From a virus, in the IMG/VR virus record IMGVR_UViG_3300028654_000074, positions 1 through 20,853 of that record: DNA of 20,853 nt, one strand, 5' to 3'. The translations under genes and the position numbers were made by a program. The stretch's first letter is position 1, and each line of letters starts with the position of its first letter. Below are positions 4,040 to 19,991 of this stretch, piece by piece. The notes beneath the pieces are model-generated. The model was given only the letters and a program-made list of their open reading frames with translations, did no database searches and was not told where the DNA came from.

Positions 4040-4498
4040 TTATGGAAGAGACGTTGCTCCGTTTTCACCATCATTAGGGGCACTTTCATCAACTAAAAGT
4101 GTACCACGGTAGCTGATATTGATCTTAGAGGTTGCACGGGCATTAAAATTCTCGCTATTGGTCTCAGGTACGCAGTTAATTATAGTGGCGATAGGGTTGC
4201 CCTTAAGGTTTTGTCTATCCTGAACAGAGAGAGTAACCGTACCAAGAAGAAGTAGATCATTCACCGTAGGAAATTTTGGCAATACCTTTACACCATTTCC
4301 GTAAATTCTAAACCCCGTACAAGAGACAGTTATGGCATTATACGATGTAGCCACAATTTCGTCAGCCCCATATTTGCCGAGGATATGGATATCTTCTAGA
4401 GTCAATCCTTCATTGATGGTGCAACTATCAAACACACCAACGACAGTACCATCGACTGTTACGAATGTTCTACCGCCAACTATTGTTTTAGCAGCCAT
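4040..4498 (-). CDS. Tail tube protein
   Basis: A 152-residue protein close in length to contractile-tail tube subunits (T4 gp19 has 163 residues). It begins MAAKTIVGGRTFVTVDGTVVG and shows short beta strands throughout, with 'ISYRGTLLVDES' near the C-terminus, as expected for the beta-barrel subunits that stack into hexameric rings inside the sheath. It directly follows the sheath gene (30-base gap), the usual order in myoviruses, and is followed by a terminator. The start is well supported: AAGGAGAA precedes the ATG at 4498 at good spacing. The call rests on size, position and beta-rich character; I cannot align it residue by residue. Confidence 0.75.
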   Translation of the reverse strand: MAAKTIVGGRTFVTVDGTVVGVFDSCTINEGLTLEDIHILGKYGADEIVATSYNAITVSCTGFRIYGNGVKVLPKFPTVNDLLLLGTVTLSVQDRQNLKGNPIATIINCVPETNSENFNARATSKINISYRGTLLVDESAPNDGENGATSLP

Positions 4499-4528: not shown

Positions 4529-6679
4529 TTAACTTGCCGAATTCATTATCTGCGAAACGTTGATGTTAAGCGGAATAAAGTAAATTGCCGTACTGAGCTT
4601 AATTTCCACCGACACATCCATTTCTGGTGCATTGATAATAATATTCGGATTCTTCCATCCAAGCGGCGCATCGCTGCTTGAACCAATAAGCTTAAGCGCT
4701 AGATAGCCAGCCATCTTTTGGCCTAAGAATGCCAATCCAGAAGCTGCGGTAACATCGGCATCTGATTGACCGCCGAACTGTAACCAGAAGCTTTGTGCCA
4801 GATCAAGGGCAACGAGATCGGATGTATACACAGCTTGGATACTATTGTAAACAAAATTAGTATCATAGCCATACGTAGTCTGATCACTGACCCAGTAACC
4901 CGCCCTGCTCGTATCTGTTGACAGGAAAAGCAGACCAGCAGAAAGAGCATCACTCACATCGCCGGGATCGCCCGAATCAAACCCAACCGGGTCGATATAA
5001 CTGATGATATTGGCCGCTTTATTAACGATGGCTTTATAGAAACCACCCGCTTGCATACCCGCCGCCAAGCATGAGGCGTACCAAGGCTGAAACGTTGTAA
5101 TAACTCCTTGGGAATTAACTTGCTGAATCTGTTGCATCGTAAGAGAGCAACGATAAAATGCAAGTCCTTGTGCTTCACTTTTGTCGTTAGCGTAGGTATC
5201 TAACATTGAGAGAATCGCTTGACGATTCTTTTTCAATTGTGGTGTGCTATACTCGATGCAGTGACTCTTTGTCAGTGCGTTGATAGCCGCAATCGTATAT
5301 GTGGACGCTGAAGATGTCATCCCCGCAGTAATATCTCTGGATGCATCTTGCGAAAATAACGGAACAATGATATTAACATTAATACCGGCCATTTGCGCCA
5401 ATGCATTAACGATATCTGCCGCAAGCGTGGGTCCTCTTCCGCCACCAGCCAGTAAAGCCGGAAGGCTCATCGAACTTGGCAATCCCGCATGTGCGGTATT
5501 TGTGAAAACCAAAGCTTTTGAGGTGCCCAACGCAGTTTCAAAATTATACAATGCTATCTTAACTCGGCCAGGCATAAGCGATGTACCAGTAGAAGCGATA
5601 CCAATCGCAGCCACCTGATCCAGAATACTTGGCGACAGCTGTTGAACTGCAGCAGAAACGCTGACCGTATAACCTGGCTGCGTTTGAATGAAAGCTACCA
5701 AGCCTGCCAACGTATTAAATTGGCTAAGGGTAATATTCAGACTCGCACCAACTCCACCAGCAACCGTAGTGATAAGCGATGTGGCGTTGATTGTCATCAA
5801 AGCAGTCGTGCCCTGATATCCAATTTGCAAACCAATTTCAGAAGCGATGTCTAAGGTTTCGCTAAAATTTACTCCAGAATTAGAAGTTACAACTTCAATC
5901 GCCGGTTCTGCAGCAGATACCGTAAGTCCAGCCGCCAACCCAAGAGAAGCGAGATCGCCAGGAGTGGAATCAATCAATTCAAATGATTTACCCCATCCTT
6001 CTGCATTCGCACCCGGATCAACTGCCATGGTAAGTTGAAGACTATTAAGTGCCACCCCAAGACTAGCCGTAATTCCAGCGGGAAGTAATCCATTGAGTTC
6101 CGTAATCAAAGTACCAATATTGGCATGCAGTGCGGGAGTAGCACTCAGGGTAACTACTGCCCCAGTAAATCCATTCATTCTAAGAGTGAAACTTGCGCCG
6201 TTAAGAGGTGCGCCAAAAGCAGGGACTGTATTTCCGCCAACGGTCGGAGTAACTTCGGTCTGAGTATTCGTTACTTGATATGCGTAGTTATTTCCGGGAG
6301 TACCATAGTTGTTAAAAAATAGAGTTCCATAACCACCAGGAATAGCAGCAGATGCGACGGTTCCAGTGTTAGTCTTCACAACGTAAACTTGATTGGCTGT
6401 ACCCGTGATATCTGGATCATTAGAAGGAGCGGCCAAAGCAGTAAAGGCATCAACAATTTGTCCGCTACCGTAGATTTGCGTAACAAGAGCAAGCTGATTA
6501 GGAGTAAAATAGTTGGTCTTTAACGGGATCTGCTGATAGCTAGGACCCTGAGCGGCTTCTCCCATGATGACAACCACGCCAGAGCTACCCAATCCAACGG
6601 GCTGGCTCTGCACAATAATATTCGGATAACTTCCTGGAATATTTGTATTAATAAAAGGCGTAACTAGTCGTAATGACAT
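4529..6679 (-). CDS. Contractile tail sheath protein
   Basis: A 716-residue protein, slightly longer than T4 gp18 (659). The N-terminus (MSLRLVTPFINTNIPGSYPN) and the early 'SSGVVVIMGEAAQGPSYQQIP' are typical of sheath subunits. The middle (about residues 120-380) is a variable, Ala/Gly/Thr-rich surface region. The conserved C-terminal half includes 'SKALVF', 'NAEGWG', 'LGWKNPNIIINAPEMD' and a final beta segment 'VEIKLSTAIYFIPLNINVSQ', matching the C-terminal domain that joins sheath subunits and contacts the tube. AGGGAGA lies just upstream of the ATG at 6679. The tail tube gene follows. The sheath contracts to drive the tube through the host envelope. The frame is intact, with no sign of an intron. 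Confidence 0.9.
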   Translation of the reverse strand: MSLRLVTPFINTNIPGSYPNIIVQSQPVGLGSSGVVVIMGEAAQGPSYQQIPLKTNYFTPNQLALVTQIYGSGQIVDAFTALAAPSNDPDITGTANQVYVVKTNTGTVASAAIPGGYGTLFFNNYGTPGNNYAYQVTNTQTEVTPTVGGNTVPAFGAPLNGASFTLRMNGFTGAVVTLSATPALHANIGTLITELNGLLPAGITASLGVALNSLQLTMAVDPGANAEGWGKSFELIDSTPGDLASLGLAAGLTVSAAEPAIEVVTSNSGVNFSETLDIASEIGLQIGYQGTTALMTINATSLITTVAGGVGASLNITLSQFNTLAGLVAFIQTQPGYTVSVSAAVQQLSPSILDQVAAIGIASTGTSLMPGRVKIALYNFETALGTSKALVFTNTAHAGLPSSMSLPALLAGGGRGPTLAADIVNALAQMAGINVNIIVPLFSQDASRDITAGMTSSASTYTIAAINALTKSHCIEYSTPQLKKNRQAILSMLDTYANDKSEAQGLAFYRCSLTMQQIQQVNSQGVITTFQPWYASCLAAGMQAGGFYKAIVNKAANIISYIDPVGFDSGDPGDVSDALSAGLLFLSTDTSRAGYWVSDQTTYGYDTNFVYNSIQAVYTSDLVALDLAQSFWLQFGGQSDADVTAASGLAFLGQKMAGYLALKLIGSSSDAPLGWKNPNIIINAPEMDVSVEIKLSTAIYFIPLNINVSQIMNSAS

Positions 6680-6690
6680 GATTATTCTCC

Positions 6691-6960
6691 CTATTTCCCT
6701 ATCTTAAATCCAAAATGACGAACACCCGCATCAAACTTTTCCGGTTCGTCATGTCCTGTGGCCTTCAAGTATATCCACAAGATCTGTTCTAATTCTTTCG
6801 ATTTGCCATACTTCTTTTTTGATTGAGCCCAAAAAAGCCTAAACTGTTCTCTCTTTTCCTTATCAGATAAAGGAACAATAGTTGGCTTATACTGAGAAGC
6901 TCTATAGGCCTTGGCCTCTTCTAGAGACATACTCTCTTTAATTTGTTTTTCTTTAGCCAT
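6691..6960 (-). CDS. Small charged protein of unknown function upstream of the sheath gene
   Basis: An 89-residue, highly charged, mostly helical protein (MAKEKQIKESMSLEEAKAYR...), with an aromatic stretch 'FRLFWAQSKKKYGKSKELEQILWIYLKATG' in pieces and a C-terminus 'GVRHFGFKIGK'. No signal peptide or membrane segment. It lies 3 bases after the Gly-rich gene and 11 bases before the sheath gene, so it is co-transcribed with the tail genes. A role in tail assembly is plausible by context. I do not recognise the family. The ribosome binding site is weak (AAGG inside the end of the previous gene), suggesting translational coupling. Confidence 0.55.
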   Translation of the reverse strand: MAKEKQIKESMSLEEAKAYRASQYKPTIVPLSDKEKREQFRLFWAQSKKKYGKSKELEQILWIYLKATGHDEPEKFDAGVRHFGFKIGK

Positions 6961-6963
6961 AAA

Positions 6964-8010
6964 TTAGTTAGCCTTGCGCCATTCAAGAGTGTGCATACCG
7001 TACTGACTCTTCACCATCTTATCTTTGCCTTGCGTACTAAAATTCTTTGGCTCATCTGGAGAAGCTCCGCCGCCGCCACCACCAAAGCCATTCGGAGCAG
7101 TACCGCCTGAACCCGAAGCACCAGGACCGTCACCGCTTGCAACATTACCAGCATCGGTTGTACCACCAACATTGCTTATATTGATGGTGATTGGGGCTGC
7201 AGGTTTGCCACCGCCGTCACCTTTTTTAGCACCGGCTCCAGAACTCGTATCCGTACTGCTACTACCAGAAATTGTTACATTTACCGTGCCAGCACCACCG
7301 GTAGAAGCGCCGCCTGTTGCGGCGCCGCCTGTGCCAGCACCACCAAGACCGCTTCCGACTCCGCCCGTTGAAGCGCCACCGGGGCTTGAACCACCAGTTT
7401 CTGTGTTAGTTTTAGTCGGAGAATTAGCAGACCCCGGCTTTGCAGCCGTAGCCGCAGGTGCCGTAGCTTTAGCAGGGTTAAATGCTTCGGCTTTTGCCAA
7501 ATCTTCTGATTTATTCATCCCGCTAACAACTTCTTTATGTTGAGTCGTTGACTCTCCTTGAGTCTGCGTATTAGAAAGATTTCTTTCTCTCTTCCCTTCC
7601 ATACGTCCAATAAACTTTGCCAACTTTAGGTGGCCTTTCATTTCATCATATCCAGGCTTATTCTTTCCATCTTGACCAACTTGAGTTGGCGTGGTGCCTG
7701 CAAGCTCGTTATTGCCTTCCGCCTTTTCTTTCGGGTTATTTCCCGGAGCAGGAGTAGGCCTGCTTTCATTGGTCGGCGCCCCAACCTCTGTTTCTTTAGG
7801 ATGAATTTCACCCTTCGGCCCCGGTCCATCAGCATGTTGCATAGCATCTTTAGAGTTATGTTCAGATGGCTTAGCATTTTCTTTACCAGAATTTTGAGGT
7901 TTGTAACTTTCTGCCTTCATAAGCTCACATTTGTGCAGAAGTTCGCCTACTTTTTCTAATACAGCAGTCGCCACTTGTTTTGCCGTAAGCTGTTTATCTG
8001 AATTAGCCAT
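6964..8010 (-). CDS. Low-complexity Gly/Thr/Ser-rich protein in the tail gene block
   Basis: A protein of about 348 residues. I place the start at the ATG at 8010 (MANSDKQLTAKQ...), because GGAG lies eight bases upstream; a TTG at 8016 in the same frame sits only three bases from that GGAG. The first 30 residues look helical. Residues 40-190 are polar and probably disordered, with 'LAKFIGRMEGKRE' as the only folded-looking patch. Residues 190-320 are a glycine-rich stretch with GGAxTGG-type repeats. The C-terminus is 'SQYGMHTLEWRKAN'. It contains the short motifs MKAE and NKSE seen in neighbouring genes. The flexible character and position suggest a virion or assembly protein; the function is unknown. 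The high GC of the Gly-rich part creates long antisense open frames. Confidence 0.55.
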   Translation of the reverse strand: MANSDKQLTAKQVATAVLEKVGELLHKCELMKAESYKPQNSGKENAKPSEHNSKDAMQHADGPGPKGEIHPKETEVGAPTNESRPTPAPGNNPKEKAEGNNELAGTTPTQVGQDGKNKPGYDEMKGHLKLAKFIGRMEGKRERNLSNTQTQGESTTQHKEVVSGMNKSEDLAKAEAFNPAKATAPAATAAKPGSANSPTKTNTETGGSSPGGASTGGVGSGLGGAGTGGAATGGASTGGAGTVNVTISGSSSTDTSSGAGAKKGDGGGKPAAPITINISNVGGTTDAGNVASGDGPGASGSGGTAPNGFGGGGGGASPDEPKNFSTQGKDKMVKSQYGMHTLEWRKAN

Positions 8011-8034
8011 GCTCAAGTCTCCATACCTAGTGTT

Positions 8035-8040
8035 AAGATT
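8035..8040 (-). promoter_or_regulatory. AATCTT element before the Gly-rich gene
   Basis: The minus strand reads CACACAATCTTAACACTAGG, 24 bases before the ATG at 8010, inside the gap between the 114-residue gene (stop at 8088) and the Gly-rich gene. Nothing else is evident in that gap apart from A+T-rich sequence. Confidence 0.3.
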
Positions 8041-8087
8041 GTGTGCCCCTGCCTAGTATTTACCTTAAGTATTTGATTTTATTAATC

Positions 8088-8432
8088 TTATTTTTTACTA
8101 CGAGTATGTTTCAAAAAATCACGTAATTTCATCAAAGTAGGGTGTTTCATATGAGAAAATTCTTCTGGTTCTGATTTGAAAAACTTCGAAGGTTTATCGA
8201 GGGCTTGAGGCATGCTTTTAGGCTTAGGCATCTTCATCCCACTTGGCATGCGTGGCATGGAAGCGATAGATTTGGTGATTTCTTCAAATTCACTCTTATG
8301 CCAAGCTCCATTGACCGTAGCCCAATCTCTATCTGTAAAATCTTCAACGCTTTTACCTCGTTGTTTCGCTACAGAATGCTTGATGGCGTTCCACTTTTTC
8401 TCATCAGCTGGCGTTTTAATAAATCCTGGCAT
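8088..8432 (-). CDS. Small basic protein with a conserved phage-type N-terminal segment
   Basis: A 114-residue, Lys-rich protein. The N-terminus 'TPADEKKWNAIKHSVAKQ' followed by 'DWATVNGAWHKSE' resembles a short helical segment (Trp, Lys, spaced hydrophobics, then a 'W..VN..Y/W') that I have seen in many phage proteins next to head genes. The rest is Pro/Met/Lys-rich with two KSE motifs. No membrane segment. It lies 17 bases downstream of the neck-like gene. There is no clear Shine-Dalgarno before the ATG at 8432; the AATCTT element ends nine bases upstream. The function is unknown. Confidence 0.5.
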   Translation of the reverse strand: MPGFIKTPADEKKWNAIKHSVAKQRGKSVEDFTDRDWATVNGAWHKSEFEEITKSIASMPRMPSGMKMPKPKSMPQALDKPSKFFKSEPEEFSHMKHPTLMKLRDFLKHTRSKK

Positions 8433-8441
8433 AGTATTAAT

Positions 8442-8457
8442 AAGATTGCTTAATCTT
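8442..8457 (-). promoter_or_regulatory. AATCTT element within a perfect small hairpin before the 114-residue gene
   Basis: On the minus strand AAGATT-AAGC-AATCTT forms a six-base stem with a four-base loop, overlapping the stop codon of the neck-like gene (8452-8450). AATCTT itself is at 8442-8447, nine bases before the next ATG. The hairpin has no T-tract, so it does not look like a terminator. Confidence 0.35.
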
Positions 8458-9463
8458 CGGAATCATCATCTTCCACGGTAGACCAAGGCTCATCGTTATC
8501 CATCATGAAAGCTGGTGTGGTTTTATTAGCCAAGAAGATAATGCCGCCAGTCCAACCAGATTTTGGACCTTTGCCTATTTTCTTTTTAAAATTAATTACT
8601 TCGATGAGACGATGCGGTTGTTTTATAAATGTATTTTCAATTTGACCCACGAGAGAAATGGTTCTATCCCAAACAGTATCCCCACCAGGAGTGCCTAATT
8701 CTTGATTAACTTCCAACGGTCCCGAAGACATTACTGTTTCAGAAAGTCCTAGGGCTTCTAGTAAACTCTCTTTATAACGTAAAAGACCATATAAGGTGAT
8801 GTCGTGTAGCCAAATGGCATTTTGGGGGTCGCCATGGGCCGTACAGATGATATTGTAATTGCCAGTTGAATAGGTATGTTCCACTCTAGCTTTATAAAAG
8901 GGATAACGAGGAAGAATCCCAAGTTTGCTAGCATCTATGGCTAGTCCAGGATCGATAAATAAACTATTTGCCGTTATACTTTGTATAGTATATCCAATAG
9001 CATTGGTTGGGTTAACTAAAACCATCCCAGGAGCTATCTGGTCTATCTCTATATTTGTTGGTAATCCCAATTCCCCTGTGGTTTCATCGTAACCAGTAGG
9101 AACAAAGGGTTTAACCATATAGGCTATCGGTTTACCAATCTCATTAGGAAGAAGAACAATCTCTTCCGTATCCTTATCGGCCATGAATTTTAGACCTTCG
9201 CGCTCTGGCATCGGCCCTAATCCTATGGAAATACATGGTGGTTTTATTTTGCCAGATTGCCATCCTACATAAACATCTATTTGATTATTAAGGAGAAATT
9301 CCTTACATGCATCGATCTGTTTCTGACCATATGCTTTCTTGAGATAAGGATTTTTGACAAAATCTTCCATCATATGATCGATCAACCATATATTATTGCG
9401 CATATCATCTAAAAACAGCCTAACGACCGTTTGTAGCACTGCATCTGACGGAAAAAATCCCAT
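8450..9463 (-). CDS. Neck / tail-terminator-like protein
   Basis: A 337-residue protein. The N-terminal part is helical (DAVLQTVVRLFLDDMRNNIW), then beta-rich segments include 'IDVYVGWQSGKIKPPCISIGL'. Around residues 200-240, 'NIICTAHGDPQNAIWLHDIT' is followed by 'YGLLRYKESLLEALGL'. The pattern of a 'HGDP' or similar turn followed by a long helix with 'LLRYK' is reminiscent of phage tail terminator or neck proteins that cap the tail and join it to the head. The C-terminus is acidic (EDDDSED). It lies after the gp10-like gene and before sheath and tube, the expected place for head-tail joining functions. The exact role is inferred. A T4-like late promoter motif lies 25 bases upstream of the start. 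Confidence 0.5.
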   Translation of the reverse strand: MGFFPSDAVLQTVVRLFLDDMRNNIWLIDHMMEDFVKNPYLKKAYGQKQIDACKEFLLNNQIDVYVGWQSGKIKPPCISIGLGPMPEREGLKFMADKDTEEIVLLPNEIGKPIAYMVKPFVPTGYDETTGELGLPTNIEIDQIAPGMVLVNPTNAIGYTIQSITANSLFIDPGLAIDASKLGILPRYPFYKARVEHTYSTGNYNIICTAHGDPQNAIWLHDITLYGLLRYKESLLEALGLSETVMSSGPLEVNQELGTPGGDTVWDRTISLVGQIENTFIKQPHRLIEVINFKKKIGKGPKSGWTGGIIFLANKTTPAFMMDNDEPWSTVEDDDSED

Positions 9464-9487
9464 AATTACCCTATTGATTTATTTGAA

Positions 9488-9495
9488 TATTTATA
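9488..9495 (-). promoter_or_regulatory. T4-like late promoter motif TATAAATA, joined to an AATCTT element
   Basis: The minus strand reads AATCTTAATATAAATATTC. TATAAATA (9495-9488) is the exact consensus of T4-type late promoters, and AATCTT lies at 9503-9498 directly upstream. A transcript starting about 10 bases downstream would have a short leader before the ATG at 9463. It would restart late transcription after the opposite-strand endonuclease insertion. It is the only exact TATAAATA I noted in a gene-start region here. Confidence 0.45.
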
Positions 9496-9539
9496 TTAAG
9501 ATTAGTGTATGAGATTCCCATTTTCGAAATGCCTAACAC

Positions 9540-9545
9540 AATCTT
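9540..9545 (+). promoter_or_regulatory. AATCTT element before the plus-strand endonuclease
   Basis: The plus strand reads CACAATCTTTTCTATATG and the element ends exactly six bases before the ATG at 9552. This is the only plus-strand gene start in the interior of the window, and the motif has turned with the gene. The GIY-YIG gene at 20779 shows the same six-base spacing. There is no Shine-Dalgarno before this ATG. Confidence 0.4.
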
Positions 9546-9551
9546 TTCTAT

Positions 9552-10343
9552 ATGTATGTCTACAAACTTACTAATATCATAGATGGCAAAAGCTATATAG
9601 GTCAAACTACTAGAACGGTAGAAGAAAGAGTTTTAGAACATTTTAAATATCACTTAAAGCCCGATAGAGGATGTAGAAAACTTTCTTTTGCTATCAAAAA
9701 ATATGGGGTTGAAAACTTTAAAATAGAGACTATAGATACGGCAGATTCATTGGAAGATCTCAATAATAAAGAAATTTATTGGATAGAATACTATAATTCT
9801 ATGAAAAATGGCTATAACTTATCAAGTGGAGGTAATGGTAGGGGGAGTTTTATATCAGATGAAACCCGCAAACTTTTGTCTAAAGCCGGAAAAGGTAGGA
9901 AACACAGCGCAGATCAAAAAAGAAAAATAAGAGAGGCACACCTTATCCCTGTATATCAATATACGAAAGATGGTTTTTTTATAAAAGAACATTCTTCTAG
10001 CGCAGATGCTTTTTTAATTACCAATATTAACAATTCCGATATAGGAAAATGTTGTAAAGGAAAGAAAAAAAGTGCTGGCGGATATCAGTGGAAATTTTTT
10101 AAAAATAAAAAAATAGATGCAGTACTACCGAGAAAAAAATCAATACCAAAAAATAAACCTATTACAAACAATAAGAGGGTAGCAAAAATTAATTCAGACA
10201 GGATTATTTTGGAAATCTATAATTCAATTATAGAAGCAGCTGCAAAAAATAAATGTGACAATAGTGATATAGTGAAAGTTTGTAAAGGGAAAATGAAATC
10301 TGTAAAAGGATTATTGTTTATCTACCATTCCATTTTGCAATGA
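9552..10343 (+). CDS. GIY-YIG homing endonuclease on the opposite strand
   Basis: A 263-residue protein. Residues 1-95 form a GIY-YIG nuclease: 'YVYKLTN' and 'SYIGQTT' supply the two tyrosine motifs, an Arg in 'TVEERVLEHF' and the Glu in 'NNKEIYWIEYY' are the expected catalytic and metal residues, and 'GYNLSSGG' closes the domain. A NUMOD3-like basic segment follows (DETRKLLSKAGKGRKHS), then two IENR1/NUMOD1-like helix-turn-helix modules (about 130-180 and 215-263), each with a 'SDI.K.CKGK.KS..G' core, for DNA recognition. The gene is A+T-rich and is the only complete plus-strand gene here. Its last 26 bases overlap the 3' end of the gp10-like gene, tail to tail. It is free-standing, with no intron signature visible. 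Confidence 0.9.
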   Translation: MYVYKLTNIIDGKSYIGQTTRTVEERVLEHFKYHLKPDRGCRKLSFAIKKYGVENFKIETIDTADSLEDLNNKEIYWIEYYNSMKNGYNLSSGGNGRGSFISDETRKLLSKAGKGRKHSADQKRKIREAHLIPVYQYTKDGFFIKEHSSSADAFLITNINNSDIGKCCKGKKKSAGGYQWKFFKNKKIDAVLPRKKSIPKNKPITNNKRVAKINSDRIILEIYNSIIEAAAKNKCDNSDIVKVCKGKMKSVKGLLFIYHSILQ

Positions 10344-11067
10344 TTTCTGGAAGTATTGAATTGTAAAATTCTTTTTCAGCCCAGTCTCCAGCTTCATCTA
10401 ATATTTTCGCCGCTTTAATTCCTGGATGGTACCACTTATCTGTCTGTCCTTCGCTCACCGTTCTAAATGTCATTATATCTCTACGAATATTTCCTGTAGG
10501 CCCTTTTGATTGATAAATACTAACTCTTTGTAGGACTCCAGTATTGCCCTTGCCGGGCCTTTCTCCACCCCAATTAAAACTATGAAGCTTTCCTGTTTTA
10601 GGATTTCCCTTTGCGTCATATTCAATTTTCTTAAATGGTACTTTTTCTTCCTTCAATTTCTGTTTAATTTGTTGTACTATATTCTGTTCTTTTCCAGTCA
10701 TGTTCTGCGGAAGTTTAGAATGTTCGAATGGAATTATCTTATATCTTCCATTTTTGCCCACTTTAGCATTCTTCTTTAAAAGATCGGGCTTCATATCATG
10801 TCTTTCCATCCCTTCTTCTATAAATAATGCTGCTTCATTCAATGTTATAACAAATACGCCAGGAACCACTTCCTCTACTTGAGATAGATTGTCTAAAAAT
10901 GTATTTCTGGTAGAATGTAATTTTTCTGCAGCTAGATCTCTAATTTTAGCATGAGATAAAGCAGATAGATTGGCTACCCCTTTCCTCATATCTGCTTCTG
11001 CTTCCATAGCATATTCTTTTAATTGCTTTGAAAGAGATTGAACATCTATCTTAATTCTTAAAGACAT
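10318..11067 (-). CDS. HK97 gp10-like head-tail joining / tail completion protein
   Basis: A 249-residue protein. The N-terminal part (about 1-70) is helical with 'LSALSHAKIRDLAAEKLHST' followed by 'NTFLDNL'. Then come a beta part 'GVFVITLNEAALFIEEGM' and 'HDMKPDLLKKNAKVGKNGRY', then 'IPFEHSKLP'. The series helix, 'A.K.....Y/F...L', beta strand ending 'A.(W/F)IE.G', and an 'MK..LL' segment is what I know from gp10-like proteins that sit at the head-tail junction of many phages. The C-terminal third (FRTVSEGQTDKWYHPGIKAA) also fits, with aromatic and basic residues. The gene lies between the 692-residue protein and the neck-like gene. Its last 26 bases overlap the opposite-strand endonuclease, so its C-terminus may have been altered by that insertion. 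Confidence 0.6.
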   Translation of the reverse strand: MSLRIKIDVQSLSKQLKEYAMEAEADMRKGVANLSALSHAKIRDLAAEKLHSTRNTFLDNLSQVEEVVPGVFVITLNEAALFIEEGMERHDMKPDLLKKNAKVGKNGRYKIIPFEHSKLPQNMTGKEQNIVQQIKQKLKEEKVPFKKIEYDAKGNPKTGKLHSFNWGGERPGKGNTGVLQRVSIYQSKGPTGNIRRDIMTFRTVSEGQTDKWYHPGIKAAKILDEAGDWAEKEFYNSILPEIIAKWNGR

Positions 11068-11070
11068 TTC

Positions 11071-13149
11071 TTACCTATTTTTAGAAACTTCATTGCCCAT
11101 TTTTGGAGGCTTTACGGGAACCCCAGACGGACCCATAACAAGACCTTGCTTTCTATCGATGAATCTTATTTTACCCTGATCATCCATAACCTTCTGCTGA
11201 CCAGAAACATTGATTGCTCCTATTGGCATCGGATTTCTAGCAACGTGTTCGGTAGTGTGTTTGGCTGATAATTTGCCGATAGGCGTTCCTACGCTACCGG
11301 CTTGGGACTGTGGGGAGGGAGAATCCTCCTCTTCATTGCTAGACGGCGCGTGACCGGGCTTAGCTTCTCCACCCTGATCTGGATGTGTAGGAAAGGGCTC
11401 ATGCCAGTCATTCTCCTGTTGGGGCTGTGCCGATTGCTCAGGTTGTTCTGGCATCAGAGATTCTTGTGTTTGTCCTAATTCAGAATTTTGTCCTGATTCT
11501 TGTCCTAATCCGGCCCCGCTTTGTCCTAATCCGAGCATAGTAGCCATTTCAATCATGGCTTTTAGCATAGAAATAGAAGCCTGATAAAGTTGTGGCATCT
11601 GAGCCTTAGACTGTTCTAGCATATCTTTACAGCCCTTGAATTGCATTAGTGCTTGAGAAACAGACTTGATAGCCTTTTCTTTTTGAATACCATCGGCGTC
11701 ATGATTCAAACCTTCCTCTAAAACACCATAAAAGTCTGGTTCGTTATCATTTGGATCGGTATTATTAGGACCAGCTGTGCCCATATCACTAGGAGTGTTT
11801 TGTTCGAACCCATCTGGCCTACTAGTGTTGCCTTCCATTCTATCATTAGTAATTTGAGTATCGTCTATGCTGTCAGCTTCATGGGCGGGAGGATTACCAT
11901 CATTTTCTATTTCACTAGCGATAGATAGTAAGGCCTCTTTAGAATGATTATCTTCTGGATCTATTGCAGCTTCCCCTTCAGCGGCCCTAGGATCTTGATA
12001 GGCCAATGTTTCTGCATCTGGATCTTCATTAGCTGATTCTGGAGCAGCACCATAGGCCATGGGAGCATTTTGGCCGAGCGGGGCATGATCTTCAGAAGTA
12101 GGCTTTCCTATCATTGGCGGAGTCATTCCCATTTTTTCATATTGCTCATGTTCTTCTGGCGAACCAGCGGGAGCTTGATCATTGTTGGAATCAGGGCTCG
12201 TACCAAGACCGTCTGGATGAGTTTTTACATTTTCTCCATAGCCCTGGTTTTCAGGGGCATTAGCAAATTCATCATCTTGTTCTGCCAACTCAGGAAAATC
12301 TAACGCCTCATCTACTGGCTCATCATAACTACAAAATTTGCAAGGCTCTTCGCCTTCTGGAGTTTCAGCACTATTGCAAAACTCACACGCTTCGGGATTA
12401 TTTAATTCTTTTGAACTATCGCAAAATTCGCAGGGCTCTTCACCTTCTGCAGTTTCAGCATCATGACAAAATTCACAATGATTAGGATCAATCCCATCAG
12501 TTTGATTGCAATATTCACAATCATCATGAGTAGCCTCTGGCTTCTCTTGATGATTGCAATATTCACAATCATCATGAGTAGCCTCTGGCTTCTCTTGATA
12601 ATTGGCGGTTTCAGTAGCATCCTCTAATTTCTGATTATTGATACTTTCAGCTTTTTTCATAGATTTAACCGCCTCAGATTTGTCCAGGTAAGATTCTGCA
12701 ATCTTATATTCTTCCATGGACTTAAATTTTCCTTTCTTAACTCGCTTTTTTATTTGCTGAATCTCTTTCTTTGTTTCTTTGTCAAAAGACACTATCTGAT
12801 TTTTCCCTTTTAACTTTGCCATTAAGAGGGCTTGTCCCGATTCGGATAGATGGACACCTATTCCTATAGATACGGTTAAGCCGGTAAGATAGTGGTAATC
12901 CTTTCTTAGCTTTTCCAATCCTTCAACATGCTTTTTATCAATAGCGTATACGCCTTGATCGCCACCAGAAGAATATTGCTTACCATCTCGTTCTTTTGCC
13001 CATCGGCTAAACAGATCGTTGCCGACCTTAATGCGTTCAGAAATTCTGGACATTTCATCAGGATCATCGTTCAAAACCGCTTGACCGATTTTGCGACCCG
13101 CACTATCCGCATCGTAAGATATGTATACAATGTTATCTGATTTATCCAT
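11071..13149 (-). CDS. Polymerase/cyclase palm-domain protein (mCpol/GGDEF-like) fused to a CxxC array and a long acidic tail
   Basis: A 692-residue protein. Residues 7-123 look like a nucleotide-cyclase/polymerase palm. 'VYISYDADSAGRKIG' (D13, D15) matches the first metal-binding strand of mCpol/Cas10/GGDEF proteins. 'YSSGGDQGVYAI' (G62-G63-D64-Q65) matches the GGDD/GGDEF hairpin. 'VSIGIGVHLSESGQALLMAK' followed by 'LKGKNQIVSFD' matches the last helix and strand of the fold. The metal-binding D13 and D64 are kept but the residue after D64 is Gln, so activity may be changed or lost. After a basic helical linker come six C-(E/K)-(Y/F)-C motifs 14-16 residues apart, likely zinc-binding. The remainder is acidic and low-complexity with one helical stretch near 490-545 and a conserved-looking C-terminus (about 625-692). 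It lies among head-tail genes, so a virion or assembly role is plausible; a signalling role is a hypothesis. Confidence 0.6.
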   Translation of the reverse strand: MDKSDNIVYISYDADSAGRKIGQAVLNDDPDEMSRISERIKVGNDLFSRWAKERDGKQYSSGGDQGVYAIDKKHVEGLEKLRKDYHYLTGLTVSIGIGVHLSESGQALLMAKLKGKNQIVSFDKETKKEIQQIKKRVKKGKFKSMEEYKIAESYLDKSEAVKSMKKAESINNQKLEDATETANYQEKPEATHDDCEYCNHQEKPEATHDDCEYCNQTDGIDPNHCEFCHDAETAEGEEPCEFCDSSKELNNPEACEFCNSAETPEGEEPCKFCSYDEPVDEALDFPELAEQDDEFANAPENQGYGENVKTHPDGLGTSPDSNNDQAPAGSPEEHEQYEKMGMTPPMIGKPTSEDHAPLGQNAPMAYGAAPESANEDPDAETLAYQDPRAAEGEAAIDPEDNHSKEALLSIASEIENDGNPPAHEADSIDDTQITNDRMEGNTSRPDGFEQNTPSDMGTAGPNNTDPNDNEPDFYGVLEEGLNHDADGIQKEKAIKSVSQALMQFKGCKDMLEQSKAQMPQLYQASISMLKAMIEMATMLGLGQSGAGLGQESGQNSELGQTQESLMPEQPEQSAQPQQENDWHEPFPTHPDQGGEAKPGHAPSSNEEEDSPSPQSQAGSVGTPIGKLSAKHTTEHVARNPMPIGAINVSGQQKVMDDQGKIRFIDRKQGLVMGPSGVPVKPPKMGNEVSKNR
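12504..12599 (-). repeat. Perfect 48-base tandem duplication inside the CxxC array
   Basis: Positions 12504-12551 and 12552-12599 are identical. Each encodes 16 residues with the core PEATHDDCEYC, so the duplication adds one complete CxxC knuckle without breaking the frame. Exact identity shows it is recent. The other knuckles (12320-12480) are diverged copies of the same plan, suggesting the array grows and shrinks by slippage or unequal recombination. Confidence 0.9.
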
Positions 13150-13150
13150 G

Positions 13151-13951
13151 TTATAAAATTCCCATTTCTTTTAGCTTACTTTTTTGCCAGACTTCTGCTG
13201 TAGGGTTTTCAGATTTAAACCACTCCCATTTTAACTTGTCCGTAATTCTAAATCTTCCCTTGATTTCTACCCATTTATTTTCATTAATTAAAAATAAATC
13301 AGGTCTATAAGTTTTACCATCTGGCATAGCAAATGTTTTAGATTGCCAATCGTACTCGGTTTTGTTGGTATTAAAATAATCCACCACCTTTGCTTCCCAA
13401 GAACCTTGACACACAAGTTCTTCATTCGTTTTCCAGTGGAATTTTATATAAGTATTTTTGGCACTTTTAGCAGCCCTCAAGGCTATCTCTTTATTTTGAG
13501 TGGCATTTTTTACGCCATAACTCTTTAAGAGAGCATTTTCTCGCCTTTCTTTCCCGCCATTGGGATGCCTACAGTTGTCATACAAAACATTAAGTGAAAC
13601 AGTTTCCCATTCACCATATTTTTCATCTATAAATTTACATTTTGTAATAGTGTTTATATAGGTAGATTCAATCAAAATAACAGAATTTCCGTGTTTTTCT
13701 CTTATTTTTTCTTTTACCTGATCTATAGTTAAAGTTTTTGATTTACTTATTTTTTTTGCTCTTTTATTTGGGTGACCATTCTTTAAACCATACACATTTT
13801 TTGGTATAGCCCACCATTCTCCACATTCCCTATCTATAAAACGTGCACGAGTATGAGTATCTACGTAAGTGTCTATATCTAAAACAATAGTATTCCCGTG
13901 AATCTTCAAAATTCTTTTTTGGATCTCTTCTATTGTAATTTTTTTAGACAT
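13151..13951 (-). CDS. PD-(D/E)XK homing endonuclease with two N-terminal DNA-binding repeats
   Basis: A 266-residue A+T-rich gene. Residues about 15-62 and 83-132 are two copies of a module: HGN, a Tyr-(V/I) strand, (C/A)(R/K)FID..(Y/C)GEW, and a HPN ending, similar to repeats seen in phage endonucleases. A short helical segment 'KSYGVKNATQNKEI' resembles a NUMOD-like DNA-recognition element. The catalytic domain (184-250) has SWE (E186), YRPDLFL (P217-D218) and WVEIKG (E229, K231), a complete PD-(D/E)XK signature. The gene overlaps the end of the upstream gene by eight bases and ends one base before the ATG of the 692-residue gene, so it is embedded in a coding chain without its own visible promoter. 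Probably a selfish free-standing homing gene. Confidence 0.8.
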   Translation of the reverse strand: MSKKITIEEIQKRILKIHGNTIVLDIDTYVDTHTRARFIDRECGEWWAIPKNVYGLKNGHPNKRAKKISKSKTLTIDQVKEKIREKHGNSVILIESTYINTITKCKFIDEKYGEWETVSLNVLYDNCRHPNGGKERRENALLKSYGVKNATQNKEIALRAAKSAKNTYIKFHWKTNEELVCQGSWEAKVVDYFNTNKTEYDWQSKTFAMPDGKTYRPDLFLINENKWVEIKGRFRITDKLKWEWFKSENPTAEVWQKSKLKEMGIL

Positions 13952-14942
13952 GTTTATTCTTTTTTCTCAATACTTCTAATAACATTTCTATATTATCAAT
14001 ATCCCAACTTCTAGAGAATCTAACTTTTATTCCATTCTCCGTCTTCTTCAAAAATATTTTACCATAATCTCCATAACAAATACAAGGAGTTAGTGAGTTT
14101 CCATTAAAAATGTCCTTGCCACAATCTGGACAAGAAACCATCTCTCCCTTTGCCATCTGTACAGAGAATTCTTTAGGTTTCTTTCTCTTTTCCAAGAATT
14201 CTTGCAAAGGCCGACTTTTCTTCATAGGAGTGGGCGTTTCTTTTTCTTCCTCAATCTCAAATACAGCTGGATTTAGTTGTTTAGCCACTTCTGCCTCTTT
14301 TCTAGCCAATTCTGTTTTGGCAGACACAACTACCATCTTATTTTTTAAAGAACTGATTTCTTCTGTAAGCTTAGCCAACATCATCTGGTGAATAGCATCT
14401 TTGTGTGCTATCTTTTTTTCTACAACCTGTTCAACAAGACTGTGAAGGGCCAATCTTTCATCTATGAGCTTTTGTACTTTACTGTCGATATCTTCTGCGA
14501 AATTAGGCTGTGAAAGTGGGGCAGGTGCCATTGGCAAATCTGATGCACTTGGAGAGTTAATCAGATTCTCCATATCGTAAAGTTCAAAGGCGGACATGAT
14601 TATCAAGCCAACCCCAGGCAAGGATCTAAATTTGAATTCTGCTATTTTCTTGGAATCTTCTTCAACATCACCACTAAAACAATCTCTCTCATGTTTAGTA
14701 GCCCTAATCATAGCATTAACGCCCACAAGGAGAGGAATTTCTTTGGTATCACCCACATTCATGGGACTAAGCTCTCTGATAAGAAGGGCGATAATAGTGC
14801 GAGGAACTATCTGGAGTGCCGTTTTGATTTCTTCAATATCTAATACGCTTCTGGTGCCATATTTATACAGTTCGACCTTGGCTAAAGATTCAAAAAAATC
14901 TTCACCTAGAGCTTTCTTTAAAAATAGATCAGCATTAGACAT
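13944..14942 (-). CDS. Coiled-coil protein with a C-terminal Cys cluster, unknown function
   Basis: A 332-residue protein. Residues 1-150 are a mixed helical domain with 'SPMNVGDTKEIPLLVGVNAMI' in pieces and 'ATKHERDCFSGD'. Residues 155-230 are a long helix rich in Lys, Glu and Ala, probably a coiled coil. A Pro/Lys-rich linker precedes 'CPDCG' (C271, C274) and 'CICYGDYG' (C287, C289), four cysteines that could bind one zinc ion. The C-terminus is a short alpha/beta segment ending KKNKHV. AAGGA lies before the ATG at 14942. It precedes the gene with the CxxC array, separated only by the inserted endonuclease, so the two Cys-rich proteins were probably once adjacent. I do not recognise the family. 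Confidence 0.55.
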   Translation of the reverse strand: MSNADLFLKKALGEDFFESLAKVELYKYGTRSVLDIEEIKTALQIVPRTIIALLIRELSPMNVGDTKEIPLLVGVNAMIRATKHERDCFSGDVEEDSKKIAEFKFRSLPGVGLIIMSAFELYDMENLINSPSASDLPMAPAPLSQPNFAEDIDSKVQKLIDERLALHSLVEQVVEKKIAHKDAIHQMMLAKLTEEISSLKNKMVVVSAKTELARKEAEVAKQLNPAVFEIEEEKETPTPMKKSRPLQEFLEKRKKPKEFSVQMAKGEMVSCPDCGKDIFNGNSLTPCICYGDYGKIFLKKTENGIKVRFSRSWDIDNIEMLLEVLRKKNKHV

Positions 14943-14951
14943 TGGTAGTCC

Positions 14952-15398
14952 TTAGTAAGTTTGTTCGACGGTGATGTAGGTCTCATCGTTAATCAGGAAA
15001 ACCAACAAATTAGCGCTGCTGGTGATAACCCAATTAGAGTATCCGCAAGCTACATAAGTCCAAGAATTAGGCATACAAGGAATTCCAACATGTCCAGCAG
15101 AATCAGTGACGCCAGGAGCCAGAGAAGCAATCGTACTGGCTTCATTCAGGGTGAGTGACTGAACAGTACCGCTATTGTTATAAATAGCCAAACAAGCTCC
15201 AGCCCTATCTAATACTCGCGCTGTGCTTGCGTCTGTAGTATAGGCAACGGCACCACCACTAATGTGTTTTAGTGGCAACAAATGCTTTCCAACTTCGCTA
15301 ACTTTTTGAGAGCCAGCCGGGTTGTTGTATTTCAAATTATCTAATGTGGATGGATCTACAATCATTCCACTATTAATGCTTCTTACTTTTTTAGACAT
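14952..15398 (-). CDS. Small beta-rich virion protein, possibly head decoration
   Basis: A 148-residue protein, Ser/Thr/Ala/Val-rich with alternating patterns suggestive of a beta sandwich ('GACLAIYNNSGTVQSLTLN', 'WTYVACGYSNWVITSSANLL'). The N-terminal 25 residues are polar and look flexible. No membrane segment. Small beta-sandwich proteins in this position, just after large virion genes, are often head decoration or fibre-tip proteins, but I cannot recognise a specific one. The start is well supported by GAGGAAAG before the ATG at 15398. A 44-base gap upstream carries the AATCTT element, so this may begin a separate transcript. Confidence 0.55.
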   Translation of the reverse strand: MSKKVRSINSGMIVDPSTLDNLKYNNPAGSQKVSEVGKHLLPLKHISGGAVAYTTDASTARVLDRAGACLAIYNNSGTVQSLTLNEASTIASLAPGVTDSAGHVGIPCMPNSWTYVACGYSNWVITSSANLLVFLINDETYITVEQTY

Positions 15399-15442: not shown

Positions 15443-16441
15443 TTATTCGTTTTCATCATCCCCATTTTCTATATTGCTCATGTCAATTTTTTGTACATTA
15501 CTAATGTCAACATTAACTGGCTGATTAGGATAAAGAATATTTTCCACCGGAGACTTAATGGTTCTAGCTTGGGTCTTTGGCTTAAGTTGATTCATCTTAT
15601 CTCCGCGATTTTGTTGATGGAATACGTATTCTCTCACTATTATCGCATGCATCGCCGCCCTTTGTGGCGCCCTAACCCCATTTGCTCCGGTTACGTTAGT
15701 AACCCTAACTTCTTTTGGTAGTGCCATAACATAATAAAAAGCTTTGTATAGATATCTAATTGAAAACACACGCCCTTTTCCAGTTAATGGGTCGATTCCA
15801 GGATTTTTCCCACCGGAAAGCCATCTGATGTTGCCACCCAAAGACTGTCCTCCAACTACGCAAGAACCTTGAGTTATTTCAAAATCAATACCGCAAGTAT
15901 ACTCTATGTTACGGCTATAGATAATTTTCTCTTGTAAACGCACAATAGGAAACATCGCCTCATTATCTATATCAGGTTGATAGGCTATTTCTTCTACATT
16001 AGCTACCAAAACATCTGCATTAGGATCAGACAGGTATAGTCTATCTCCAGGCATTAGATATATACGCTCTCCTTGAGCTACCCCCGTAGGCGTTGGAACA
16101 TTGTAAAAACGCGGCATCACGAGTCTAGATTCTGATGGATCAGTGACTCCACTTTGGGTACGTTTCTGTTCCCTGGTGTTGTCGGTCATGGTAGCGGTAA
16201 AAATACCGGCACAACGGTAAAGCATACCATTAGAGGTGATTTGGTCTACCCCATCATTTTTACGAATTTCACCAATATCATTCTTTCCTAAAGGACTAAT
16301 CATAGCCCTAAAATGAGAAAAATCTACGCCAAGACTAGTAACAAAAACATCTAATCTATTCAGATCAAATGATTCTTGCACTTGTGGTGCAAATGGCGTT
16401 ATCACCGGTATTTGAATACCTATTGGAGGCCTATTACTCAT
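15443..16441 (-). CDS. Virion structural protein, unknown role
   Basis: A 332-residue protein with a long N-terminal part containing 'DVFVTSLGVDFSHFRAMISP' and 'NGMLYRCAGIFTATMTDNTR', a centre with 'GERIYLMPGDRLYLSDPNAD', and 'YTCGIDFEITQGSCVVGG' and 'GGNIRWLSGGKNPGIDP'. The 'RVFSIRYLYKAFYYVMALPK' stretch followed by a basic C-terminus that ends acidic (ENGDDENE) fits a head or head-tail structural protein. The mixture of beta strands and loops, with no signal peptide or membrane segment, also fits. I cannot match it to a named family. Its ATG at 16441 overlaps the end of the previous gene by eight bases, with GGAAAG as ribosome binding site. Confidence 0.55.
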   Translation of the reverse strand: MSNRPPIGIQIPVITPFAPQVQESFDLNRLDVFVTSLGVDFSHFRAMISPLGKNDIGEIRKNDGVDQITSNGMLYRCAGIFTATMTDNTREQKRTQSGVTDPSESRLVMPRFYNVPTPTGVAQGERIYLMPGDRLYLSDPNADVLVANVEEIAYQPDIDNEAMFPIVRLQEKIIYSRNIEYTCGIDFEITQGSCVVGGQSLGGNIRWLSGGKNPGIDPLTGKGRVFSIRYLYKAFYYVMALPKEVRVTNVTGANGVRAPQRAAMHAIIVREYVFHQQNRGDKMNQLKPKTQARTIKSPVENILYPNQPVNVDISNVQKIDMSNIENGDDENE

Positions 16442-16797: not shown

Positions 16798-17298
16798 TTA
16801 TTTCTTCAGTTTTAATCCTGCCTCACAAGAAACAGATTTTTCAACTGTAGCTCCCGCCATAGCTTTAGCAAATTCTTTGGGGATATTTAGATTTTCAATA
16901 ATCAGGTGATCTTTAGAGAATTCGCTATTCACGGTAGCAATTTGACTGTTATGTTTTGTGATAAGGAATTCTACGCTTGGCCCTGTCTGAACAGAGAAGA
17001 TGTCATAGCCATTTTTTCTCAAATCATCTGATAGAAAATGCGAATGACTCATAACAAGGGGTTCTACAAATCCTTCGGACTTCATCATGGCTGGATGGTA
17101 ATCTGGGAATTGCTTTTCTAATTGATATTTTACGATAGCAGGATGAGACCCAGCCGCCAAAACATCCTCAGATGACTTGTATTTTCGTCTTCCCAACGCT
17201 AGCCAAAACCCCCCTTTGGTTCTAACCAGTTTTACTGGATTTCCATCAATGGTTCCAGAATCTTCGATTCTATCTACATCATTAGCTGTTATTTGCAT
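16798..17298 (-). CDS. Unknown protein of the head-gene block
   Basis: A 166-residue protein. The N-terminal half has a 'GNPVKLVRTKGGFWLALGRR' strand-turn pattern, followed by 'SHPAIVKYQLEKQFPDYHPA'. A short linker carries MMKSEGF, then a second part 'LSDDLRKNGYDIFSVQTG' and 'VEFLITKHNSQIATVNSEF'. AAAGGAGA lies at good spacing before the ATG at 17298; this site is inside the end of the GIY-YIG gene. Its first 17 bases overlap that gene, so the endonuclease has inserted exactly at the junction between this gene and the 2H phosphoesterase gene. Function unknown. Confidence 0.5.
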   Translation of the reverse strand: MQITANDVDRIEDSGTIDGNPVKLVRTKGGFWLALGRRKYKSSEDVLAAGSHPAIVKYQLEKQFPDYHPAMMKSEGFVEPLVMSHSHFLSDDLRKNGYDIFSVQTGPSVEFLITKHNSQIATVNSEFSKDHLIIENLNIPKEFAKAMAGATVEKSVSCEAGLKLKK

Positions 17299-18666: not shown

Positions 18667-19515
18667 TTAAAAGTTGCCGACGAAAAATCTAGACGAAAAA
18701 ATATTTCTAATCTGCCTTTCTAGCTTTGCTCTTTTTTGCATTAATTCTTCTATGCGCAACTGATATATGCGTGGGCCAGGCATAGAGCTGCTTTGCGAAA
18801 TTCCATCTTGACTTTGTGATTGACTTGTAAAGATGAATGTGGCCGCAATCTCGCTCAAGATATCTATGGCAGCAATACAGCCGATCAATTCATTGACGAC
18901 CGTAGGTATCTTGCCTTCTTGATTAGACATTCCAGCCGTATATTTTATTTGCCAATAAGCCGGGACCCAGTTCAATCCGTCCATGACACTTAAGAATGCA
19001 ATACCTGCATTTCCAACTGCACCCTGCACTGAATTCACGCCGTAAGCAGCTAAGAGCGGAATCACATTGATTAACCTCTTAGAAAAGTTTGCAGTTTCGA
19101 TCCATTCGGCAGGTATTTCAAAGATGGTATTTTTATCAGCACTCACGATGGCCAACTGTTCAATACTGATAATCGGACCCTGTTCGGCTACCAAATTGAT
19201 GTAAGCCTTATAGTCCTCTTGTTTGAAAGGCAATTTGTTTTGGAATTGTTCTGGAGTAATAGTAACTTTTAAATCTACTTCGGCTACGTTGGAGGCGAGA
19301 TAAATGCGATCCTTGAGGTCATCGTCAGAGAATGTATCGCCATTGAAAAAGAATAGAGGGATGCCCTTTAGGAATCTCGATTTTAATTGCTGCGGAGTAA
19401 GCATCGGTTCGACACGCTGCATCAAACCAGACACAACAGAAGCGTGAACCGGATAGATAGCCGTTCCGTAACCTTTTCCTATAATCGTAGAAACATTATT
19501 TGGTGTATTAGCCAT
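18667..19515 (-). CDS. Structural protein, possibly head-tail connector or neck
   Basis: A protein of about 282 residues (MANTPNNVSTIIGKGYGTAIYP...), starting at the ATG at 19515, which overlaps the upstream stop as TAATG with GGA eight bases upstream; a second ATG at 19524 would add three residues. It has 'AYINLVAEQGPIISIEQLAI', then 'ADKNTIFEIPAEWIETANFSKR' in pieces, a hydrophobic patch 'LINVIPLLAAYGVN' and a C-terminal basic helix 'IEELMQKRAKLERQIRNIF'. The C-terminal helix and two hydrophobic patches suggest a particle protein that packs against others. I do not recognise the family; the head-tail connector idea comes from position upstream of the decoration-like and neck-like genes. Confidence 0.5.
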   Translation of the reverse strand: MANTPNNVSTIIGKGYGTAIYPVHASVVSGLMQRVEPMLTPQQLKSRFLKGIPLFFFNGDTFSDDDLKDRIYLASNVAEVDLKVTITPEQFQNKLPFKQEDYKAYINLVAEQGPIISIEQLAIVSADKNTIFEIPAEWIETANFSKRLINVIPLLAAYGVNSVQGAVGNAGIAFLSVMDGLNWVPAYWQIKYTAGMSNQEGKIPTVVNELIGCIAAIDILSEIAATFIFTSQSQSQDGISQSSSMPGPRIYQLRIEELMQKRAKLERQIRNIFSSRFFVGNF

Positions 19516-19991
19516 TAGCAACATCCATTGTTTACTGGGAAGATAACGTCCAGCATATTAAGAACACTAAATCTATTGATTGTATTTCCCTGATAAATTG
19601 CAAATTGAATGTTTCCACCGCAAATCGCTTGGCTTGCGGGAACTGAAACAGACCAAATAGAGCTATCGGCGGGGCTGACCTGGGTTGCGATTAGCGTGAT
19701 GGCAGTGTTAAGATCAACTGACGGGAAAGTAACGGTGACTTGATATGGATTATTGTTAGAGCCAATTCCAACCAAATATCTTAGACCAGCAGTAGGTCCT
19801 ACTGGCGTTATCCCACTGAAAATACTGCCAAAATATCCACTACTATTTGAGGCTTGAGTAGCCTGATTAGCATCGTAAAGTTGAAAATACAGCGTTATGG
19901 GGTCGCCATTGTTGACGATCCACTGATTACCGTAGGTAAACGCGTTTATATTAAAAAAAGAGGTTATTACTTTTGCGGCGAACAACGGCAT
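19515..19991 (-). CDS. Beta-rich virion protein
   Basis: A 158-residue protein with many short beta strands, Asn, Ser and Thr rich, ending with NNGCC. Typical segments are 'GDPITLYFQLYDANQ', 'GLRYLVGIGSNNNPYQVTVTF' broken by turns, and 'GGNIQFAIYQGNT'. No membrane segment or signal peptide. It starts at the ATG at 19991 with GGAG nine bases upstream. It lies between an inserted endonuclease and a structural gene it overlaps (TAATG), so they are translationally coupled. It may be a minor capsid, decoration or adaptor protein; I cannot distinguish these. Confidence 0.55.
   Translation of the reverse strand: MPLFAAKVITSFFNINAFTYGNQWIVNNGDPITLYFQLYDANQATQASNSSGYFGSIFSGITPVGPTAGLRYLVGIGSNNNPYQVTVTFPSVDLNTAITLIATQVSPADSSIWSVSVPASQAICGGNIQFAIYQGNTINRFSVLNMLDVIFPVNNGCC

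Follow-up and report, generated by a model that had tools for sequence, protein, structure and literature searches.

The mCpol (minimal CRISPR polymerase) domain, a miniature form of CRISPR Cas10, is an established family with an established fold, and all characterised enzymes that carry it belong to bacterial defence loci (PMC12657218, PMC12657230). One of them is OptS, the mCpol synthase of the Panoptes system, whose chemistry and catalytic residues D6 and D57 are described in the same two studies and in which both aspartates are metal ligands needed for activity (PMC12657218). In the literature searched, no paper on a phage mCpol or on a phage cyclase of this type was found, and absence there is no proof that none exists. 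Here, we describe an mCpol domain in a 20.9-kb IMG/VR virus fragment (20,853 nucleotides, analysed in full and hereafter called the window), where it forms the N-terminus of a 692-aa protein encoded among the neck genes of a tailed phage (Table 1).

The open reading frame lies exactly where the original prediction had placed it (11071-13149) and runs on the minus strand from an ATG at 13149 to a stop at 11071, while the plus strand of the same interval holds many stops. The motifs on which a palm of mCpol, GGDEF or Cas10 type had been proposed (D13-A-D15, GGDQ at residues 62-65, VSIGIG and AKLKGKNQIVSFD) are all present, and their order was reproduced in 4 of 2,000 shuffles of the first 130 residues. 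The Pfam mCpol model PF18182 matches residues 9-121 with E=1.3e-11 and 45.3 bits against a curated cut-off of 26.4, and no Pfam GGDEF match was found in the 692-aa protein up to E=1. In a phmmer search of the PDB with the single sequence, the two solved mCpol structures ranked first (1e-5), and a profile built from 13 phage relatives matched OptS/solved mCpol with E=3.5e-16, GGDEF proteins following at 0.01 or worse. AlphaFold2, given an 11-sequence alignment, modelled the palm with a pLDDT of 90.5 and a pTM of 0.84, in the order strand, two helices, beta hairpin with GGDQ, helix, strand, helix, strand. When this model was compared with solved structures by Foldseek and VIA-align, OptS came top (9pd0_A, Z 18.1, 1.4 Å over 118 residues), with GGDEF proteins, Csm1 and Y-family polymerases below it at Z 13-14. 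Two of the checks suggested at the outset, a profile comparison and a structure prediction, thus favour mCpol over GGDEF or Cas10: the palm of the 692-aa protein is an mCpol homologue, and it matches GGDEF diguanylate cyclases less well, mCpol outranking GGDEF in fold. The remainder of the proposed architecture was likewise confirmed, with six CxY/FC units in residues 195-273 and an acidic stretch over residues 131-620 (22% D/E and 6.5% K/R). For the C-terminal region, AlphaFold2 predicts a hairpin of two helices together with one small beta element (pLDDT 62.9 overall), and a sequence search of this region against the PDB gave no match.

Residues D13 and D64 align with the catalytic D6 and D57 of OptS, and the superposition implies that they meet at one site in the modelled palm. 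Eleven close family members share D13, D15, S37, G62, G63, D64, K112 and K116 without exception. Across 54 non-redundant phage domains, whose mean identity is 39%, the columns for metal binding and for the lysines belong to the best conserved (counts in Table 1). It had been suggested that the glutamine following D64 means either a changed chemistry or a loss of activity. This concern falls away, because position 65 is E in 43 of the phage domains, Q in 8 and another residue in 3, and OptS, an active enzyme, has AAD-G at the GGDQ position, with a gap before the G. In the base pocket, S37 matches OptS S30, a position that is highly variable among mCpol domains (PMC12657218), and K41 replaces OptS N34 at a position that varies among the phages. 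Since N34 is an adenine contact in OptS and is not conserved here, the base choice may differ, and K41 counts against the synthase function that we favour below. On the strength of the conserved residues, we nevertheless regard the palm site of the window protein as probably competent. The dN/dS of the palm is about 0.04-0.16 in pairs with measurable dS (dS is often near saturation), and strong purifying selection together with the conserved metal and lysine columns reads as the mark of an enzyme with a conditional benefit, for example against host defence.

To avoid choosing loci by the mCpol domain itself, the lineage was surveyed with an alignment of gp7.1, the next gene downstream, against IMG/VR (80 loci), and the gene upstream of each hit was then inspected. 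With redundant loci, the outgroups (Bacillus phage SPO1 and Leptospira) and a duplicate of Myxococcus phage Mx1 (L014, a piece of Mx1) set aside, 53 of 57 non-redundant members carried an mCpol domain in the gene preceding gp7.1. Both D13 and D64 are kept in 42 of the 54 non-redundant domains. Nine domains, forming one clade (support 99), have D13N with S replacing G62 and keep D15, D64 and K112, and three (Mx1, L104 and L123; one clade, support 97) have lost both Asp positions and still keep the domain. In four relatives at two tree positions, reflecting two events, the palm alone has been deleted, and the CxxC array, helical hairpin and C-terminal domain remain; two of these relatives, on contigs of 170 kb and 166 kb, contain no mCpol-like sequence elsewhere.

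A further scan, based on a broader alignment of the domain, gave, among the loci inspected, only members of the same lineage, and gp7.1 adjoins the domain in 10 of 11. The exception, L155, is a contig resembling Mx1 into which a homing endonuclease has been inserted; its mCpol palm starts a 1392-aa protein (5989-10167) with ParB_N-like and GNAT acetyltransferase matches. A scan of bacterial genomes with the domain returned only two contigs in one bog MAG, rejected as bacterial mCpol because their gene order is that of phage structural contigs, and a Sulfobacillus GGDEF protein (L031), which is a false positive. No other mCpol was found among 58 genomes of the bog MAG's phylum, and searches of plasmids and named phages found only Mx1.

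Because palm-less orthologues exist, the palm is not needed to build the particle, and a domain that is mostly kept but now and then lost is easier to reconcile with an accessory enzyme than with an essential part of the structure. The best explanation of these sequence comparisons is that the palm would be a dispensable, usually catalytic module, an accessory enzyme riding at the N-terminus of a conserved structural-operon protein whose structural part would comprise the CxxC or acidic linker, the helical hairpin and the C-terminal domain. Alternatively, the palm could serve only for oligomerisation in the neck or head, its enzyme chemistry being a relic, as might be suspected from its place among neck genes in all relatives and from Mx1, L104 and L123, which retain it in that place with both catalytic Asp positions lost. 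We consider this unlikely, because the catalytic residues rank with the best conserved columns (42 of 54 domains) and the absence of the whole domain from four relatives is not expected of an assembly scaffold. The inactive scaffold that had been offered as an option suits particular relatives (Mx1, L104, L123 and perhaps the D13N clade) but not the window protein. In the D13N clade, where purifying selection is equally strong, the domain may bind rather than convert nucleotides, and this raises a second alternative, in which the palm binds an NTP or a host cyclic nucleotide without synthesis, for instance to soak up CBASS signals. Phages are known to use sponges against defence nucleotides (Acb2; PMC12657218), and the retention of D15, D64 and K112 in the clade (9 of 54) would suit such a role. 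The full catalytic set is, however, kept by most members, the window protein included. Palm cyclases as a rule also bind their own products weakly, and a pure sensor is accordingly a distinctly unlikely account.

The gene for this putative accessory enzyme lies in a neck operon. As had been claimed, the surroundings are a phage structural block, identified by the tail sheath (phrog_279, E=8.8e-20), by phrog_772 (E=1.4e-18) and by gene-by-gene synteny with SPO1: gp6.3, gp6.4, gp7.1, gp7.2, gp8.1, sheath and tube follow in the SPO1 order, with gp8.1 and the tube assigned by position. SPO1 gp6.4 matches 8q01_S (E=8.8e-22), and a gp7.1 profile gave no match in the PDB. The neck of phage 812, an SPO1 relative, consists of portal, adaptor, stopper and terminator (PMC12886913). 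Between the gp6.4 and gp7.1 homologues, the lineage carries three genes, encoding a 148-171 aa protein, a coiled-coil/cysteine-cluster protein and the mCpol protein. The major capsid protein precedes the neck block in relatives, including Mx1, and terminase and portal come after the tube in a 163-kb relative (L012). The best explanation is that the gene belongs to a large group of myoviruses, most of them uncultured, whose relatives include SPO1 and Mx1.

Table 1. Features of the window and the evidence for each
Feature	Position	Strand	Evidence
692-aa protein: mCpol palm, CxxC array, acidic tail, helical hairpin and C-terminal domain	11071..13149	-	
mCpol palm domain, residues 7-127	12769..13131	-	Pfam PF18182, AF2, OptS 9pd0_A superposition
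Codon of D13, first metal-binding Asp (OptS D6)	13111..13113	-	Alignments; D in 42/54 phage domains
GGDQ, residues 62-65; D64 corresponds to OptS D57	12955..12966	-	Alignments; D64 in 51/54
KLKGK, residues 112-116, conserved lysines of GKN turn	12802..12816	-	K112 in 52/54, K116 in 49/54
Linker directly after palm, containing a pair of K[SA]E motifs (at 157 and 166); candidate prohead-protease sites	12646..12681	-	
Array of six CxxC units (CxY/FC type), residues 190-273	12331..12582	-	Also in relatives with and without palm
Conserved helical hairpin, residues 472-541	11527..11736	-	Present in palm-less orthologues too
Conserved C-terminal domain, residues 624-692; in frame in the window but out of frame in most relatives	11074..11280	-	
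SPO1 gp6.3 homologue (phrog_772), adaptor	18667..19524	-	
SPO1 gp6.4 homologue (phrog_1004), stopper	15443..16441	-	Weak match in window (0.019); L012 orthologue 0.0035
148-aa gene of unknown fold, part of conserved insert	14952..15398	-	
332-aa upstream gene, coiled coil and cysteine cluster; conserved partner just upstream of mCpol gene	13944..14942	-	
Downstream gene, SPO1 gp7.1 homologue (phrog_16819)	10318..11067	-	
SPO1 gp7.2 by position and size (phrog_1000; phage 812 tail terminator by position)	8450..9463	-	L012 orthologue matches phrog_1000
Tail sheath	4529..6679	-	phrog_279 E=8.8e-20; 39% to Mx1 sheath
Tail tube by position (SPO1 gp10.1)	4040..4498	-	Synteny

These surroundings also bear on whether the protein is an immunity or superinfection-exclusion device, that is, a phage-borne Panoptes relative whose mCpol product is read by a phage or host effector. 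The defence-locus setting of every characterised mCpol enzyme would favour such a device, as would the nearest PADLOC model, CARF_HEPN_mCpol (E 3e-4 to 4e-9), but no effector gene adjoins the mCpol gene: its neighbours are neck genes and homing endonucleases, and none in the window resembles optE (2TM and S-2TM-beta effector). The OptE-like effector domain PF18153 was not found in 16 related phage genomes, in a search made without a positive control. With no such effector in the 16 relatives and none beside the gene, the locus is not a Panoptes system, and the device reading is very improbable.

Several further genes lie among or near the structural genes. Free-standing homing-type endonuclease genes (GIY-YIG, NUMOD) separate structural genes at 9552-10343 (+), 17282-17899 (-), 20024-20779 (-) and 13151-13951 (-); the last encodes 266 aa, sits immediately upstream of mCpol and is missing from L002, a close relative. 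It had seemed that the window and L002 might have recombined in the mCpol gene, but this reading was dropped, as the flanks too are about 92% identical and the only difference lies in a section of gp7.1 beside a homing endonuclease. Two related window proteins (1353-2162 and 3151-3954, -) have EALKYKTRxEFxKNSxxAY repeats and a C-terminal stretch weakly like REase_MTES_1575, and are likely mobile nucleases. In Mx1 (L004), the interval from the major capsid gene to the neck genes holds large proteins annotated as NUDIX hydrolase (5436-9875, 1479 aa) and kinase (9883-11742, 619 aa), which may be further cases of enzyme domains on structural-operon proteins.

The C-terminal domain is in frame with the mCpol ORF in 14 members, including the window, and lies in the minus-one frame in 32 (L006, L012, L062, L108 and 28 others, at the end of the mCpol ORF) and the plus-one frame in 7. 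In 31 of the 32 minus-one cases, the short overlap before the ORF1 stop contains a slippery heptamer in frame, which in nearly every case is C_CCA_AAR or A_AAA_AAR. Such heptamers number 36 per 535 overlap codons versus 17 per 15,987 codons in the remainder of these ORFs (odds ratio 68, P=1.4e-41, a nominal value because related sequences are not independent). The recurrence of the heptamer implies programmed frameshifting, and the minus-one shift joining the mCpol ORF to the C-terminal domain is thus probably programmed. Re-initiation cannot make the domain in 22 of the 39 out-of-frame cases, since no start codon precedes it there. RNA structure downstream of the site is mildly stronger than in shuffles (mean z -1.6). 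All seven plus-one members have CC_CCA_CAR close to the stop. Other phages are known to extend structural proteins by frameshifting (PMC6669499).

The mCpol gene has a fixed position in the neck operon, whose genes are closely spaced. The structural region (20-60 kb) of the 163-kb relative contains 41 K[SA]E tripeptides versus about 12 expected, and the sequence outside it 14 versus about 22 expected; enrichment in structural proteins is likewise seen in L037-L044. From this composition, we take the K[SA]E motifs as likely prohead-protease sites and K[SA]E as a candidate recognition motif of the lineage. About a dozen members, the window included, have K[SA]E directly after the palm (residues 152-170), and this clustering, together with the enrichment, is consistent with a head protein that the prohead protease cleaves. 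A cut at this point would release a free palm of OptS size in the head. Gene position, which is no proof by itself, and K[SA]E motifs together make it reasonably probable that the mCpol protein is a virion component. A literature search for particle proteomics found none for Mx1 or the other members. Several structural proteins carry a recurring peptide, KxLxxMKAMPKPxLP/TK, close to their ends or linkers (L012:9650-9712, L036:14150-14268, L143:9785-10705, L136:1791-3731 and L081:6423-7790); it is a possible targeting or processing tag.

As both OptS metal-binding Asp residues and the other strongly conserved residues are kept, the palm would most likely join two NTPs into a cyclic dinucleotide, and we hold it somewhat probable that its product is a cyclic (di)nucleotide. 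mCpol works as a dimer or tetramer, an assembly that the fused protein would have to allow, and this requirement counts somewhat against the synthase reading. The product would be made late or carried in the particle and would act on host nucleotide-signalled defences, either (i) as a competitor for CBASS-type sensors or (ii) by keeping a Panoptes-like effector restrained; such a counter-defence role is tentative. Taken as a whole, a modular neck-operon protein with a cyclic-nucleotide synthase palm acting on host nucleotide-signalled defence, with its proposed catalysis, product, virion presence and target, has in our view an even chance of being correct. A bolder and rather doubtful version is that the lineage packages or builds into its neck an mCpol/Cas10-type synthase, which is freed or exposed at infection and floods the host with cyclic dinucleotide to jam or pacify nucleotide-signalled immunity, a mirror of the Panoptes decoy in which the dose of the long form is set by frameshifting in most members.

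Not found described in the literature searched are a phage mCpol as a near-core neck-operon gene, its intact, altered, dead and deleted states, and its frameshifted C-terminal domain. Wherever their function has been tested, mCpol proteins are otherwise bacterial defence enzymes, whereas here the domain belongs to a near-core phage gene within virion assembly genes, and its close match to such an enzyme suggests that the virus itself may make an immune-signalling-type nucleotide. The natural forms of the domain provide a comparative set for asking whether phages make the decoy-type nucleotides of bacteria, domain-level losses distinguish the parts required by the virion (tail and C-terminal domain) from the enzymatic part, and the conserved frameshift would represent an unrecognised gene-expression switch in phage neck operons.

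Compared with known systems, the phage palm shares with OptS (PDB 9mnr, 9pd0, 9nwn; PMC12657218, PMC12657230) its fold, the D6/D57/S30 equivalents (D13/D64/S37) and a lysine and GKN turn at the end, but the two are 25% identical and N34 is not conserved in the phage palm. Panoptes has a small single-domain synthase in a defence locus, whereas the phage protein is a 692-aa fusion from a virion operon, with a long CxxC/acidic tail and a C-terminal domain. GGDEF diguanylate cyclases and the Cas10/Csm1 palm have the same superfamily fold (Z about 13) but are clearly more distant than mCpol, and the window protein is without RxGGDEF, HD or Cas10 context. The Mx1 protein WNM70340.1 (OR576727.2, 33963-35369) stands in the same gene order, followed by gp7.1- and gp7.2-like genes, sheath and tube, and has an mCpol-like N-terminus (Pfam E=0.00046, below cut-off); it differs in having lost the catalytic residues (WSIDH; LGAVG) and in being without the CxxC array. 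The necks of SPO1 and phage 812 (Herelleviridae; PMC12886913) have adaptor, stopper, gp7.1, gp7.2, gp8.1, sheath and tube in the same order, but SPO1 has no gene between gp6.4 and gp7.1, where the window lineage has three inserted genes, mCpol last. Finally, in the frameshift-extended structural proteins of other phages (SPP1 and 936-phage major tail protein/TpeX; PMC6669499), a frameshift at the end of a structural gene likewise gives some of the product an extra C-terminal domain; in the present lineage, the protein so extended is one of the neck operon that bears mCpol, and in the window the domain is fused to it in frame.
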